A program made the translations under genes and the position numbers. From the NCBI RefSeq assembly GCF_036409155.1, contig NZ_JAZGLW010000001.1:1674001-1738000 (forward strand): a DNA stretch of 64,000 bases. The letters are read 5' to 3'. The DNA comes from Mycobacterium sp. 050128 (GTDB taxonomy: Bacteria > Actinomycetota > Actinomycetes > Mycobacteriales > Mycobacteriaceae). Positions 6,519 to 10,786 of this stretch are shown in pieces. The notes below the pieces were generated by a model. That model was not told the DNA's origin. It saw only the letters and a list, made by a program, of their open reading frames with translations, and searched no databases. Within the stretch, counting starts at the first letter, position 1; each line of letters opens with the position of its first letter.

Positions 6519-7187
6519 GTGGGGTCGCACGTCGAGCCGCCGAAGGGCGGCGAGCCCACCGACGACAAAGCCGACAACGCGGACGACAAGGCCGGCGATC
6601 AGCCGGAGCCGGAGAAACCCACCGGCAGCGACGTCGGGCAACCCGCCGACGACGACGAGTCCGGACGATTCCCGTCCGGCGGCAGCATGGAGTTCCAGGA
6701 CGCGGCGACGACGAAGCCACGGCCGCCCTCGCCCGCCGAATTGCGGGCGCGCAAGAAGTACGAACAAAAGCAGAAGGAGCTGGAAGAGGCTCGGCAGGCC
6801 GCCGAAGAGAAGCGGCGCCACCAGAAGCGCGTGTTGATGGGCGCCGCGGCCGCCGTCGGCGTGGTGGGCCTGGTGGCCGGCCTCGGGTATTGGATGCTGT
6901 CGGAGCCGACCGTCACCGCGCAGTGCGTCCAGGAAGATCCGAGCGGTCAGCCGGTGATCGTGCCGGACAGCTACTGCACCGGTCATACCGAGGGACTCAA
7001 CGGCTTCTTCTACTACGGCGGGCACCAATACCACTACTACTACGGCAGTTCGGGCTCGGTGGGTTCGCGACCGAGCGGCGGGACGACGACCGCGCCCAAG
7101 GGCGCCAACATCACCACCAAGTCGGGGAGCAGCATTTCGCGCGGCGGCCTGGGCGGCTCGTCGCCCGGGAAGAGCAGCGGCTCGTGA
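6519..7187 (+). CDS. Single-pass membrane protein, YgiB/YjfM (DUF1190)-like, of the ATP-grasp cassette
   Basis: 222 residues from a proposed GTG at 6519; a GTG at 6462 is in the same frame and cannot be excluded. The N-terminal 90 residues are acidic and Pro-rich (KADNADDKAGDQPEPEKP), then a charged coiled coil (KKYEQKQKELEEARQAAEEK). One membrane helix follows near residue 115 (AVGVVGLVAGLGYWML). The outer part has two Cys (AQCVQEDP, DSYCTGH), a Tyr-rich patch (FFYYGGHQYHYYYG) and a Gly/Ser-rich tail. The paired Cys, aromatic patch and position before a YgiC-like gene match the E. coli ygiB-ygiC and yjfM-yjfC pairs. Its stop overlaps the next start (GTGA). Confidence 0.72.
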   Translation: MGSHVEPPKGGEPTDDKADNADDKAGDQPEPEKPTGSDVGQPADDDESGRFPSGGSMEFQDAATTKPRPPSPAELRARKKYEQKQKELEEARQAAEEKRRHQKRVLMGAAAAVGVVGLVAGLGYWMLSEPTVTAQCVQEDPSGQPVIVPDSYCTGHTEGLNGFFYYGGHQYHYYYGSSGSVGSRPSGGTTTAPKGANITTKSGSSISRGGLGGSSPGKSSGS

Positions 7188-8350
7188 GACGCGCCACGCA
7201 GCGACCGCGGCCGAACTGGCAGAAGATCGTCGAATCGCAAGGCCTGGTGTATGGGACGCCCGCGCGTGACGCCAGGGGGCGGGACCGCCCGTACTGGGAC
7301 GAATCGGTGTATTACGAGTTCGAGATGGACGAGATCCTGGCGCTGGAAGCCGATGTCGAACTGCTGCATTCGATGTGCCTGAACGCCGTCGAGCAGGTCG
7401 TGCTGATGGAGCGTTACGCGGAATTTGGTCTGCCGGAATGGAGTTGGCAACCGATTGCCGAGTCGTGGCGCCGGTCGGACCCACATGTGTACGGTCGCTT
7501 CGACTTACGCTACGACGGGCGACGGCCTGCGGTGCTGCTCGAGTACAACGCCGATACGCCGACGACGCTACTGGAAGCCGCTATCCTGCAATGGTATTGG
7601 CTCAAGGACTGCTTCCCCGACGACGACCAGTGGAACTCCTTGCACGAGCAGCTGGTCGACCGGTGGAAGCTGCTGCGCGATCTGCTGCCCAACGACGAGC
7701 TCCACCTGAGCTGGTCGGGGGTGGAGGCCACCGGCGAGGACCAGATCACGACCACCTACATGCAGGAAACGGCCGCGGAGGCGGGTTTTCAAACGGTCGG
7801 CCTGACGATTGAGGACATCGGCTGGGACTCCGCGCTGAAGCGCTTCGTCGACCTCGAAGAGTCACAGATCCACGCGGTCTTCAAGCTCTACCCCTGGGAG
7901 TGGGTGCTCGACGACGAGTTCGGCAAGCACGTGGTGTCCACCCTGCCGCAGACGGCGTGGATCGAACCGCTGTGGAAGACGCTGTTGTCCAACAAGGCGA
8001 TTCTCGGCATTTTGTGGGAGATGTATCCGGGCCACCCGAACCTGTTGCCCGCCTACATCGACGATCCGCACGAGTTGACCGAATACGTCCGCAAACCCAA
8101 GCTGGGGCGTGAAGGCGCGAACATCACCGTCGTCGGCGCCGGCCGCCAGACCGCGACGGGCGGTGTCTACGGCGAAGAGGGATACGTCTATCAGCTGTTG
8201 GACCCGCTACCCGAATTCGACGATATGCGGCCCGCGTTGGGCGCCTGGATCGTCGGCGATACAGCCGCCGGCCTCGGCATCCGCGAGACTGCGGGACTGA
8301 TCACCGACGACGGCGCGGCCTTTGTCCCACACCGGATCCCCCAGAAGTGA
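7184..8350 (+). CDS. ATP-grasp amidoligase, glutathionylspermidine synthase-like (YgiC/YjfC family)
   Basis: 388 residues from a GTG overlapping the previous stop (GTGA), about the length of E. coli YgiC/YjfC. Recognisable family stretches are LLEYNADTPTTLLEAA near residue 120, KLYPWEWVLDDEFGKH near 235, LPAYIDDP, and REGANITVVG near 310, where the ATP-grasp Lys and acids lie. No N-terminal CHAP amidase domain is present, so this is the stand-alone synthetase form. The family joins an amine to a carboxylate using ATP; in E. coli the relatives do not appear to be the true glutathionylspermidine synthetase. Mycobacteria use mycothiol rather than glutathione, so the substrate must differ. A decarboxylase-aminopropyltransferase gene nearby points to a polyamine. 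Confidence 0.82.
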   Translation: MRRATQRPRPNWQKIVESQGLVYGTPARDARGRDRPYWDESVYYEFEMDEILALEADVELLHSMCLNAVEQVVLMERYAEFGLPEWSWQPIAESWRRSDPHVYGRFDLRYDGRRPAVLLEYNADTPTTLLEAAILQWYWLKDCFPDDDQWNSLHEQLVDRWKLLRDLLPNDELHLSWSGVEATGEDQITTTYMQETAAEAGFQTVGLTIEDIGWDSALKRFVDLEESQIHAVFKLYPWEWVLDDEFGKHVVSTLPQTAWIEPLWKTLLSNKAILGILWEMYPGHPNLLPAYIDDPHELTEYVRKPKLGREGANITVVGAGRQTATGGVYGEEGYVYQLLDPLPEFDDMRPALGAWIVGDTAAGLGIRETAGLITDDGAAFVPHRIPQK

Positions 8351-8382
8351 ACGTCTGAGCAAGTGAACGGAGTTGATCGTCG

Positions 8383-8850
8383 ATGACAAACATCGTGGCG
8401 CTGAATTCAGGCTATTGGGATCAGGGCTATTGGGCGGTGCTCGGCCGTGGCGCGGGCGCCATCATCTTGTACGCGATCGTTGGACTGATCCTGATGCTGG
8501 TCGGGTTCTACGCCATCGACCTCACCACGCCGGGTCCGCTGCGCAAGATGGTCAACGTCGGAAAACCGAACGCGATCATCGTGTCCGCCGCGGGAATGGT
8601 GAGCATGGCGTTGATCGTGGTGCTGGCGATTTACTCGTCGTCCGGAAAGCTGGCCGAAGGGCTGGTGGGATCGGCGGTCTTCGGGCTGGTGGGCATCGTC
8701 GCCCAGGTGGTGATGATGCGGATCGCGACCATGGTGATCGGCATCGACATGGACGCGTTGTTCAACTCCGATGAGTTCAACTATGAGGCGCTGATGGTGG
8801 CCGCCGCGCAGGTGGCGCTGGGCATCGTGGTGGCGGTCGCGATCCTCTGA
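8383..8850 (+). CDS. DUF350 membrane protein (YjfL-like)
   Basis: 155 residues with four hydrophobic segments: about residues 17-42 (GAIILYAIVGLILMLVGFYA), 65-88 (IIVSAAGMVSMALIVVLAIY), 95-120, and 130-153 (ALMVAAAQVALGIVVAVAIL). This four-helix, two-repeat pattern with TMs in pairs is the DUF350/YjfL layout. It begins 32 bp after the ATP-grasp gene in the same operon. In E. coli the DUF350 gene yjfL likewise sits with a DUF1190 gene and an ATP-grasp gene, which supports a common membrane-linked function. The molecular role is unknown. Confidence 0.83.
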   Translation: MTNIVALNSGYWDQGYWAVLGRGAGAIILYAIVGLILMLVGFYAIDLTTPGPLRKMVNVGKPNAIIVSAAGMVSMALIVVLAIYSSSGKLAEGLVGSAVFGLVGIVAQVVMMRIATMVIGIDMDALFNSDEFNYEALMVAAAQVALGIVVAVAIL

Positions 8851-8860
8851 CGGCAGCCGC

Positions 8861-10786
8861 CTAGCGGGAATCGCTATCCCGCAGGCTCTTTGGCGGCACG
8901 GTCGCCGCGGTGAGCGTGTCCGCATCGATGGTCTGGGGGCGGTAGGGCAGCGTCGGCAGGCGCGCCGACATCGTTGCGACGGGGTCGTCGCAGGTTTCGG
9001 TCAGCCCGCAAAGAAATGCCCATTCATGTTCGTCGCTACCGAAATACAGGACGGTGGGGAAGGTTTCGTGGAACCGCCGCCACGACGCGTGCAACGATTC
9101 GTTGCGCCACACCGTAGGACAGCCGGCCTGAGCGACGACCACCCGGCCGATACTCGCGCAGCGTCGCAGGAAGTCGGTGCCGTAGAGCCGGTTGTGCTGG
9201 ACCGCCTCGGTGCGCTCGTCGGGAAGATCGATCACCACGACGTCGTACTGCGTGGTAGCGCGGTCCACGAATTCCCAACCGTCGCAATAGTGCATGGCAA
9301 CCGGCCCGGAACCTGTTTCCGCCCTTAGTAGTTCGTCCACCGTGTAGCCGTAGGGCAGGTGTCGCGCGCACAGCCGCACGGCCTCGCGATCGATGTCGAC
9401 GTGATCGACGTGGGCCGCCCCCGCCGATACCGCCTGCTGGCTGACCACGCCCTCGCCCGAGCCGATGACGAGCACCCGCTCGATCTGGCCGGCCAGCAGC
9501 AGCGCCGGTACCAGTAGCGCCTCGTGATAGATGAGCTGACTGAACTCGGTGCTTTGACGTTCGCCGTCGCTGAACAACGACACGCCCTGCCGGGTGCGGC
9601 CGATCACCAGGTTCTGGAATTCGGTGTCGACGTCGCAGATGACCTCGGCGAGGTCCCAGATTCGGGTCAGTCCCGGCGCCAGGGGTTCGGCGACCTCCCA
9701 TCGGTTGTCGGAAGGCTCATCGAAATATGTTGGCAACGACGGGAATCCATTGAACTGAACCGACGAATAGCTCGCGGTGTACGCGCCGGTGTCGGCGATC
9801 TCGACCCGGTCGCCGGGACTCAGGGTGACCGGAAGCGGATAGCTCTGATAGAGCACGTCGTCGCCGTCGCAGGTCGGACCCGCGATTACCGCGTCGGCGA
9901 ACGGATCACCATCACGGTCGGTCCGCAGGCGGTACCGGATGTACTCGTTTTCGGTCTCGGCGAGACCGCCGTAGCGGCCGATGTCGAGGTACACCCAGCG
10001 CCGGGCGTCGGTGCCCGTACGCACCGCCACCACCTCGCAGCTGATCGTGCCCGCCGAACCCGCGATCGCCCGCCCGGGCTCGATAGCCAGCTGCGGCGGG
10101 TTCGTGCCGAAGTGGCGGGCCAGTGCCGCGTGGATGGCCTCGGCGATGACGTCGAGATGCGGTGCGCCGACCGCGTACGCCAGCGGATAACCGCCCCCGA
10201 TGTTGATCGTGCCGATTTCTCCCAGTCCATCGAAAACTGCTGCAGCACAACGTATTCCCAGCTCCCATGCCGATGGGTCGAGTTGCTGTGACCCGACGTG
10301 AAAACACACGCCTTCGGGGCGAAGTCCCCGCCGCGCGGCCCGGTGCAGCAATTCGGCGGCGGCATCGGCAGCGCAGCCGAACTTGTGACCGAACGGGGTC
10401 ACCGACGACGGAAAGTCCGGCGCGATACGGCATTCCACCGCCGCTGCGGGCGCGCGTTCGGCGATGGCGTCGAGTCCTTGTTCGGTGTCGAACGCGAACC
10501 GCCGCACCCCGCGCGCATGTGCCTGGGCGATGTCGGCGGGCTTCTTGACGGGATTCCCGAACGTCAGCAGGCTGCCGTCGATCCCGGCCGAGGCGCACGT
10601 GTCGATCTCGCCGACCGATGCGACGTCGAATGCGCAGCCCTGGGCGGCCAGCAGGCGCAGGATCGGCTCGGCGGGGTTCGCCTTGACCGCATAGCGGATT
10701 TGCGCCTGGGGAAACGCGGCGCGCATCGCCTTGAAGTTCTCGCGCACCCGACCCAGATCGATGCTCAGATACGGCGTCTCGGGCAC
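8861..10786 (-). CDS. Fusion of PLP-dependent (ornithine-type) decarboxylase and spermidine synthase-like domain
   Basis: 641 residues. The first 360 are a fold-III (alanine-racemase-like) basic amino-acid decarboxylase: YAVKAN at about 32 (PLP Lys), HVGSQ near 165, GGGYP near 199, EPGRA near 238, GPTCDGDDVLY near 306 (the Cys-Asp pair for the active site in trans), and GAYTASY near 334. Residues from about 375 are spermidine-synthase-like: QLIYHEALLVPALL, VLVIGSGEGVVS (usual GGGDGG altered to GSGEGV), HVDIDREAV, and VVIDLPDE where a catalytic Asp is expected. The domains are joined without a frameshift. It could make a diamine and then aminopropylate it. No S-adenosylmethionine decarboxylase gene is in the window. 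It converges on the DUF350 gene with 10 bp between stops. Confidence 0.86.
   Translation of the reverse strand: MPETPYLSIDLGRVRENFKAMRAAFPQAQIRYAVKANPAEPILRLLAAQGCAFDVASVGEIDTCASAGIDGSLLTFGNPVKKPADIAQAHARGVRRFAFDTEQGLDAIAERAPAAAVECRIAPDFPSSVTPFGHKFGCAADAAAELLHRAARRGLRPEGVCFHVGSQQLDPSAWELGIRCAAAVFDGLGEIGTINIGGGYPLAYAVGAPHLDVIAEAIHAALARHFGTNPPQLAIEPGRAIAGSAGTISCEVVAVRTGTDARRWVYLDIGRYGGLAETENEYIRYRLRTDRDGDPFADAVIAGPTCDGDDVLYQSYPLPVTLSPGDRVEIADTGAYTASYSSVQFNGFPSLPTYFDEPSDNRWEVAEPLAPGLTRIWDLAEVICDVDTEFQNLVIGRTRQGVSLFSDGERQSTEFSQLIYHEALLVPALLLAGQIERVLVIGSGEGVVSQQAVSAGAAHVDHVDIDREAVRLCARHLPYGYTVDELLRAETGSGPVAMHYCDGWEFVDRATTQYDVVVIDLPDERTEAVQHNRLYGTDFLRRCASIGRVVVAQAGCPTVWRNESLHASWRRFHETFPTVLYFGSDEHEWAFLCGLTETCDDPVATMSARLPTLPYRPQTIDADTLTAATVPPKSLRDSDSR

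Follow-up and report, generated by a model that had tools for sequence, protein, structure and literature searches.

Conserved C-terminal tails beside YgiC/YjfC-type amidoligases and a SpeD-less decarboxylase-aminopropyltransferase fusion as a possible polyamine source in Mycobacterium

In this work, we analyzed a four-gene locus within a 64,000-nucleotide stretch of the Mycobacterium sp. 050128 genome (hereafter, the window), which encodes an ATP-grasp amidoligase, a membrane-anchored partner protein, a DUF350 membrane protein and, on the opposite strand, an ornithine decarboxylase (ODC)-like domain joined to a SpeE-type aminopropyltransferase in one protein (Table 1). The partner ends in a short conserved tail that accompanies the ligase: among 198 Mycobacterium genomes (the genus sample), the ligase was found in 55 and the tail protein in the identical 55, the pairing being unbroken in this sample. 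We propose that the tail is the substrate of the ligase, which would recognize its RGG[FLYI]G core and use ATP to couple an amine of a polyamine to the C-terminal carboxylate of the partner; the fused ODC-SpeE enzyme would supply the polyamine, putrescine or cadaverine from its first domain and possibly extended by the second, and the DUF350 protein would assist in the membrane. We judge the chances of this proposal to be evenly balanced. Capping of the C-terminus is proposed because of the analogy to the glutathionylspermidine (Gsp) synthetase/amidase GspS, which joins spermidine to a peptide through an amide bond and uses a C-terminal glycine carboxylate; to our knowledge, mycobacteria lack glutathione. 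A preliminary description of this DNA suggested that the amidoligase could join a polyamine to some carboxyl partner, perhaps on the membrane protein or in the envelope; the polyamine link is retained here, and the conserved tail and the matching distribution of ligase and tail protein over the 55 genomes now point to the membrane protein as that partner.

The amidoligase matched PF03738 with an E value of 1.1e-149 over residues 19-392 of the 395 scanned, and no other Pfam family. Its sequence identity is 43% with YgiC and 40% with YjfC, which are also its best solved relatives (top PDB match YgiC, E 1.6e-88). Residues R105, D107, K271, K304, R367 and E368 are invariant in an alignment of 12 rows, in which E120 and N122 are also present in YgiC and YjfC; we take these conserved residues to have catalytic roles. 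By sequence, then, the amidoligase is a member of the YgiC/YjfC group. GspS shares the PF03738 ATP-grasp domain but carries in addition an amidase domain, which the Pfam scan did not find in the window protein, so that a bifunctional enzyme of the GspS type was ruled out. In RefSeq, YgiC and YjfC are labeled peptide--spermidine ligases. The available part of a 2025 paper terms them peptidylpolyamine synthetases (PMC12568646), and a table in another, likewise available in part, gives YgiC as lacking Gsp activity (PMC12506659); the accessible portions of the open-licence literature searched do not state their natural substrate.

The final residues of the partner are SISRGGLGGSSPGKSSGS. Together with E. 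coli YgiB (RGGFG...SMGG) and YjfM (RGGYG...HWGG), it shares a tail plan consisting of RGG[FLYI]G, a short stretch rich in glycine and serine, and mostly GG or GS at the very end. The preliminary description had called this protein DUF1190-like, which holds for its position, membrane anchor and C-terminal tail but not for the family model: there was no match to PF06693 at E 0.01 and just two weak, unrelated families appeared at E 10, whereas the positive control YjfM matched PF06693 at 2.9e-17. Among the mycobacterial loci we obtained a ligase match in 64 and a partner match in 59, and at least four of the five loci without a partner match are cut at the locus edge. All 59 partners contain RGG[FLI]G followed by 9-19 residues, and in 31 of the 59 loci the ligase start and the partner stop overlap by 4 base pairs (bp). 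Tails ending in GG or GS account for 82 of 86, the 86 comprising these 59 and 27 from elsewhere (four tail-less loci being excluded). When a strict definition was applied (RGG[FYWL]G within the last 45 residues and a final G or S), 31 of the 1935 genes called in the loci and the window carried the tail, all 31 belonging to the same partner cluster, c8; this number is a lower bound, since some further partners were skipped or run together by the simple gene caller.

The tail extends beyond Mycobacterium, to other Actinomycetota and to Proteobacteria. Of 246 Actinomycetota genomes sampled, the ligase was present in 16 (two of them Mycobacterium), and a tail-bearing open reading frame lay near it in 15 of the 16 (13 of 14 outside Mycobacterium), L161 being the locus without one (L and G numbers denote loci and genomes). 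Core variants in this phylum include REGFG, QGGFG and RGGFF, and many of the partners are short, lipoprotein-like proteins; family f18 among these genomes is presumably Streptomyces. Eight other partners, seven of them from Actinomycetota, were scanned against Pfam; none of the seven gave a curated-level match, that of L157 having a weak, sub-threshold DUF1190 match (E 0.014) confined to the C-terminal end and the other six none. On plasmids, a YjfC relative was found in 164 records; of 15 loci picked for breadth from 40 listed, 12 have a tail, some with the looser cores RQGFG, YGGFG, SAGFG and RAGFG, and three do not, namely Photobacterium L170 and the distant relatives L182 and L183 (24-27% identity). 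A list of 112 YjfM homologues, fragments included, contained 58 with the core within the last 45 residues, 55 of which end in GG. We found no description of the tail in the open-licence literature, although subscription papers, including a 2023 paper on YgiC/YjfC, could hold one. Two of these loci deserve mention in their own right: an Arthrobacter gene annotated as tRNA-dihydrouridine synthase (L180:2763-3266) encodes a lipoprotein-like, tail-bearing protein beside a ligase, and a Roseomonas plasmid (L181:2209-4559) has two tandem ligase genes ahead of DUF350 and DUF1190 genes.

The convergent gene encodes a two-domain protein. The top solved matches of its first domain are lysine/ornithine decarboxylases and those of the second aminopropyltransferases; lysine 35 and the motifs EPGR, GPTCDGDD and GAYT..FNGF are present in the former, and the SpeE active-site residues YHE, GxGEG, DID, DG, DLPD and Q in the latter, with functional roles that we presume for both sets. 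By its motifs, the first domain looks like a fold III decarboxylase of the ornithine/lysine type, with activity and substrate both being predictions. It shares GP[TS]CD and FNGF/FN with its top-scoring solved relatives, the lysine/ornithine decarboxylases 5gjm and 2plj of the PDB, although these were deposited as separate enzymes whose listed chain lengths leave out a SpeE domain. The database label of diaminopimelate decarboxylase was dropped in view of these best solved relatives. The nearest named relative found for the whole fusion is that of Mycobacterium ahvazicum (93%).

Separate decarboxylase and SpeE parts occur in Nocardia, Mycolicibacterium and genomes of family f14. All 14 gaps inspected between the separate halves contain SpeD, which shares a single frame with SpeE in those loci of Mycolicibacterium and Nocardia that were read. 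SpeD is gone from the fused genes of Mycobacterium, in which the end of the decarboxylase joins the (I/V)xEPLAPG(L)(T/S)R with which SpeE begins. The preliminary description had not noted that SpeD lies between the halves in relatives and has been lost here. The window SpeE groups with the Nocardia and Mycolicibacterium SpeE proteins that share a frame with SpeD, but the window protein has no N-terminal SpeD domain and is joined to the decarboxylase instead. A SpeD-SpeE fusion protein of Nocardia farcinica was reportedly described by Green in 2011. Single SpeD-SpeE proteins of 431 and 403 amino acids were also seen in two Mycobacterium genomes without a ligase match (L133 in G387 and L134 in G398, respectively), and an alternative fusion order at L020 (G271), where ODC and SpeD are apparently in one frame and SpeE is separate. 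In a tree of 63 rows, which omits L066, L067, L076, L099 and other short or broken matches, 38 fused and 8 split Mycobacteriaceae rows fall together, the 8 split ones forming one group (96/96). The best tree requires two changes between the fused and split states, one change sufficing in 2% of 200 bootstrap trees, whereas the well-supported branches require just one; the fused form may therefore have arisen once or twice, the tree leaning to two changes. The SpeD-bearing loci L068 and L076 already adjoin the ligase, so that this placement is either older than the fusion or has more than one origin.

Both domains of the fusion appear to be maintained. The SpeE active-site columns are kept in 44 fused rows as in 76 others (73 split and 3 without decarboxylase, some genomes being represented twice), and column 37 near the active site, a histidine in 72 of the 76 others, varies among the fused. 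The decarboxylase motifs are likewise kept in 42 fused and 72 split rows; 43 other columns differ, which we read as probable clade differences. A decayed SpeE domain was ruled out by low ratios of nonsynonymous to synonymous substitution (dN/dS) in both domains, with medians of 0.185 for SpeE and 0.198 for the decarboxylase over 627 pairs of 36 fused loci, and of 0.261 and 0.272, respectively, for 11 split loci; these are simple Nei-Gojobori estimates that use only pairs with a synonymous divergence (Ks) of 0.1-1.5.

The loss of SpeD from the fused form takes away the usual source of the donor for the aminopropyl step. No SpeD (PF02675) was found in the window's own genome (0/1; search control positive in 8/14), in 26 of 27 genus-sample genomes with a full-length fused match or in any of the 33 named fused genomes examined out of 35 available (among the 33 are L067, with a broken gene, and L066, which lacks the SpeE start), the two samples having species in common. 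It was found in 9 of 9 comparison genomes, eight with separate halves plus L099, which has SpeE and no decarboxylase match. The one fused genome with a match to S-adenosylmethionine (AdoMet) decarboxylase is G391 (45 bits, over the cut-off); the open reading frame concerned (L132) encodes 170 amino acids, is over 4 Mb away from the fusion gene and does not have the ESHAS-H motif seen in the remaining SpeD sequences. For nspC of the carboxynorspermidine route, G000, G242 and G281 were negative and G391 showed a weak, partial match below the cut-off; the eukaryotic-type AdoMet decarboxylase PF01536 matched in none of four genomes, but its control was likewise silent, which deprives this negative of weight.

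Two routes to the donor can be considered. Somewhat short of an even chance, in our estimation, is that an AdoMet decarboxylase outside the family searched is hidden in these genomes and that the fusion is a normal spermidine synthase. The puzzle of SpeE without SpeD is genus-wide (SpeE homologues in 85 and SpeD in 6 of the 198 genomes), the SpeE active site is retained in the fusion, and de novo spermine synthesis in Mycobacterium is reported in the available part of a 2025 paper (PMC11841054); however, no candidate gene was found here, and M. smegmatis is described as without detectable polyamines in the accessible text of PMC8503589. The other route, which we hold to be quite improbable, is that the SpeE domain transfers the 3-amino-3-carboxypropyl group of AdoMet to an amine and the fused decarboxylase then removes the carboxyl group, yielding an aminopropyl product without decarboxylated AdoMet. 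It would fit the absence of speD from all but one of the fused genomes of the two samples, a SpeE domain that is not decaying and the joining of both steps in one protein, but no donor-site change was seen to accompany the loss of SpeD, the active-site columns being equal to those of SpeD-associated relatives, and the decarboxylase resembles an ornithine/lysine enzyme. The hidden AdoMet decarboxylase is thus our favorite of the two, direct use of AdoMet being a bold suggestion.

We also asked how tightly the fusion is tied to the ligase. At a threshold of E 1e-60, the fusion query matched in 32 of the 198 genomes: 27 with a full-length fused gene (interrupted in five of the rows by a single in-frame stop), three split with SpeD, G398 with SpeE only and G373 with a partial match containing a stop. 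The ligase was present in all 30 genomes with full-length ODC and SpeE parts, and in 30 of the 32 with a fusion match vs 25 of the 166 without; in the no-fusion genomes that were fetched it sits in different neighborhoods. The distance from the DUF350 to the SpeE match ranges from 6 to 6075 bp, and fusion parts and ligase are more than 2 Mb apart in G433 and on different contigs in G425. ODC and SpeE therefore seem to go with the ligase, and not the reverse. The four genes thus do not depend on one another's presence as a set, and the fixed four-gene system suggested earlier found no support, given those distances and the 25 of 55 ligase genomes that lack a fusion match. In Mycobacterium tilburgii (L067 and G373) the fusion gene is broken, and neither the L067 flank nor G373 yielded a ligase.

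Several observations weigh against modification of the tail by a fusion-derived polyamine. The evidence consists of sequence and gene comparisons, and the genus genomes are not independent, which makes the co-occurrence p values too small. Those 25 ligase genomes would need an imported polyamine or another amine, and G373 (partial fusion with a stop) and G398 (SpeD-SpeE only) lack the ligase. No adjacent tail was seen at L161, L170, L182 and L183. The last residue varies, being mostly Ser in mycobacteria (56 of 59, with Gly in 3) and mostly Gly in the other tails (24 of 27, with Ser in 3). Besides, positive charges precede the membrane helix of the partner, which suggests, by a hydropathy estimate only, that the tail lies outside the cytosol; as an ATP-using ligase must act inside, the tail would need to be modified before it is exported or inserted. 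This predicted location and the variable last residue would suit a ligase whose product is a soluble conjugate of a polyamine with a peptide or metabolite, the tail merely docking it at the membrane or regulating it, as would the naming of YgiC and YjfC as peptide ligases in RefSeq and the action of GspS on a small peptide. Nevertheless, we regard a soluble product as rather unlikely, since docking alone would not need small residues to be conserved at the very end, as they are in the GG/GS termini described above.

A different alternative is that the fused enzyme is unconnected with the ligase system and is a neighbor by inheritance of the locus. The decarboxylase/SpeE loci of Nocardia and Mycolicibacterium have no ligase in the flanks fetched, which, together with the ligase genomes lacking a fusion match and the separation by up to about 6 kb, speaks for this possibility. 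Against it stands the presence of the ligase in every genus-sample genome with both full-length parts, including the unlinked G433 and G425, and we consider this alternative improbable as well. Modification of the tail, with the fusion as the putative supplier of the amine, accordingly remains the reading that we prefer.

The E. coli systems YgiB-YgiC and YjfL-YjfM-YjfC, whose gene content is as given in the preliminary description, resemble the window locus in the ligase family, the DUF350 protein (yjfL), the RGG[FY]G tail ending in GG and the adjacency of the genes. They differ in that the YjfM partner matches the DUF1190 family model, in that no polyamine gene occurs in the stretches shown, and, for the yjf operon, in its extra PspA-family, DUF2170 and DUF2491 genes; neither PspA nor DUF2491 was matched among the window neighbors scanned. 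PspA-linked operons in which a GspS-like ligase accompanies DUF350 and DUF1190 proteins, with a proposed polyamine link, are described in the available part of PMC11237479. These share with the window the ligase, the DUF350 protein, the protein in the DUF1190 position and the link to polyamines, but the tail, the ODC-SpeE fusion and the loss of SpeD are not mentioned in that part of the paper. It is tempting to speculate that C-terminal polyamine amidation of envelope proteins is widespread in bacteria, with YgiC-type ligases recognizing an RGG[FYLWI]G tail on diverse membrane proteins and lipoproteins of Actinomycetota and Proteobacteria, and that in slow-growing mycobacteria it is fed by the SpeD-free ODC-SpeE fusion through some other donor route; we would put this generalization at a little under even. 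If the tail is modified, polyamines would acquire a specific function, that of labels attached covalently to envelope proteins, and the conserved tail offers a direct and cheap test of the YgiC/YjfC substrate in E. coli K-12. Furthermore, the SpeD-less fusion reduces the puzzle of SpeE without AdoMet decarboxylase, which concerns most SpeE-bearing mycobacteria, to one enzyme assay.

The positions of the four genes, the ygi/yjf-like operon and the converging fusion gene were all confirmed (Table 1). The amidoligase starts with GTG and shares 4 bp with the stop of the partner gene, and the DUF350 stop is 10 bp away from that of the fusion gene. The DUF350 protein matched PF03994 with E 1.1e-16 and 61.5 bits, above the cut-off of 26. 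Scans for promoters and terminators of the locus gave nothing above chance.

Table 1. Features of the ligase-fusion locus, in window coordinates
Feature	Position	Strand	Pfam	Remark
Tail-bearing protein, 222 amino acids, one predicted membrane helix; predicted ligase substrate	6519..7187	+		
C-terminal tail SISRGGLGGSSPGKSSGS, RGGLG core and terminal Gly-Ser; predicted recognition/ligation site	7131..7184	+		extent chosen by the authors
YgiC/YjfC-type ATP-grasp amidoligase, 388 amino acids	7184..8350	+	PF03738	
DUF350 membrane protein, 155 amino acids	8383..8850	+	PF03994	
ODC/lysine decarboxylase-type decarboxylase (residues ~1-355) and SpeE-type aminopropyltransferase (~364-636), one protein	8861..10786	-	PF02784, PF00278, PF01564	

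Upstream of the locus lie acyltransferase genes (two match PF01553 and a third clusters with them) and a gene for a HAD hydrolase; downstream lies an LGFP-repeat amidase gene, beyond which the genes are presumably those of a galactan cluster. At L040, L050 and L065, a gene that reads as PE-like (cluster c35) sits between the DUF350 and fusion genes. In the window's own genome, a second SpeE homologue, of the membrane type, adjoins another DUF350 gene (L001, C4:384107-384598), so that DUF350 adjoins SpeE at two loci of this genome.

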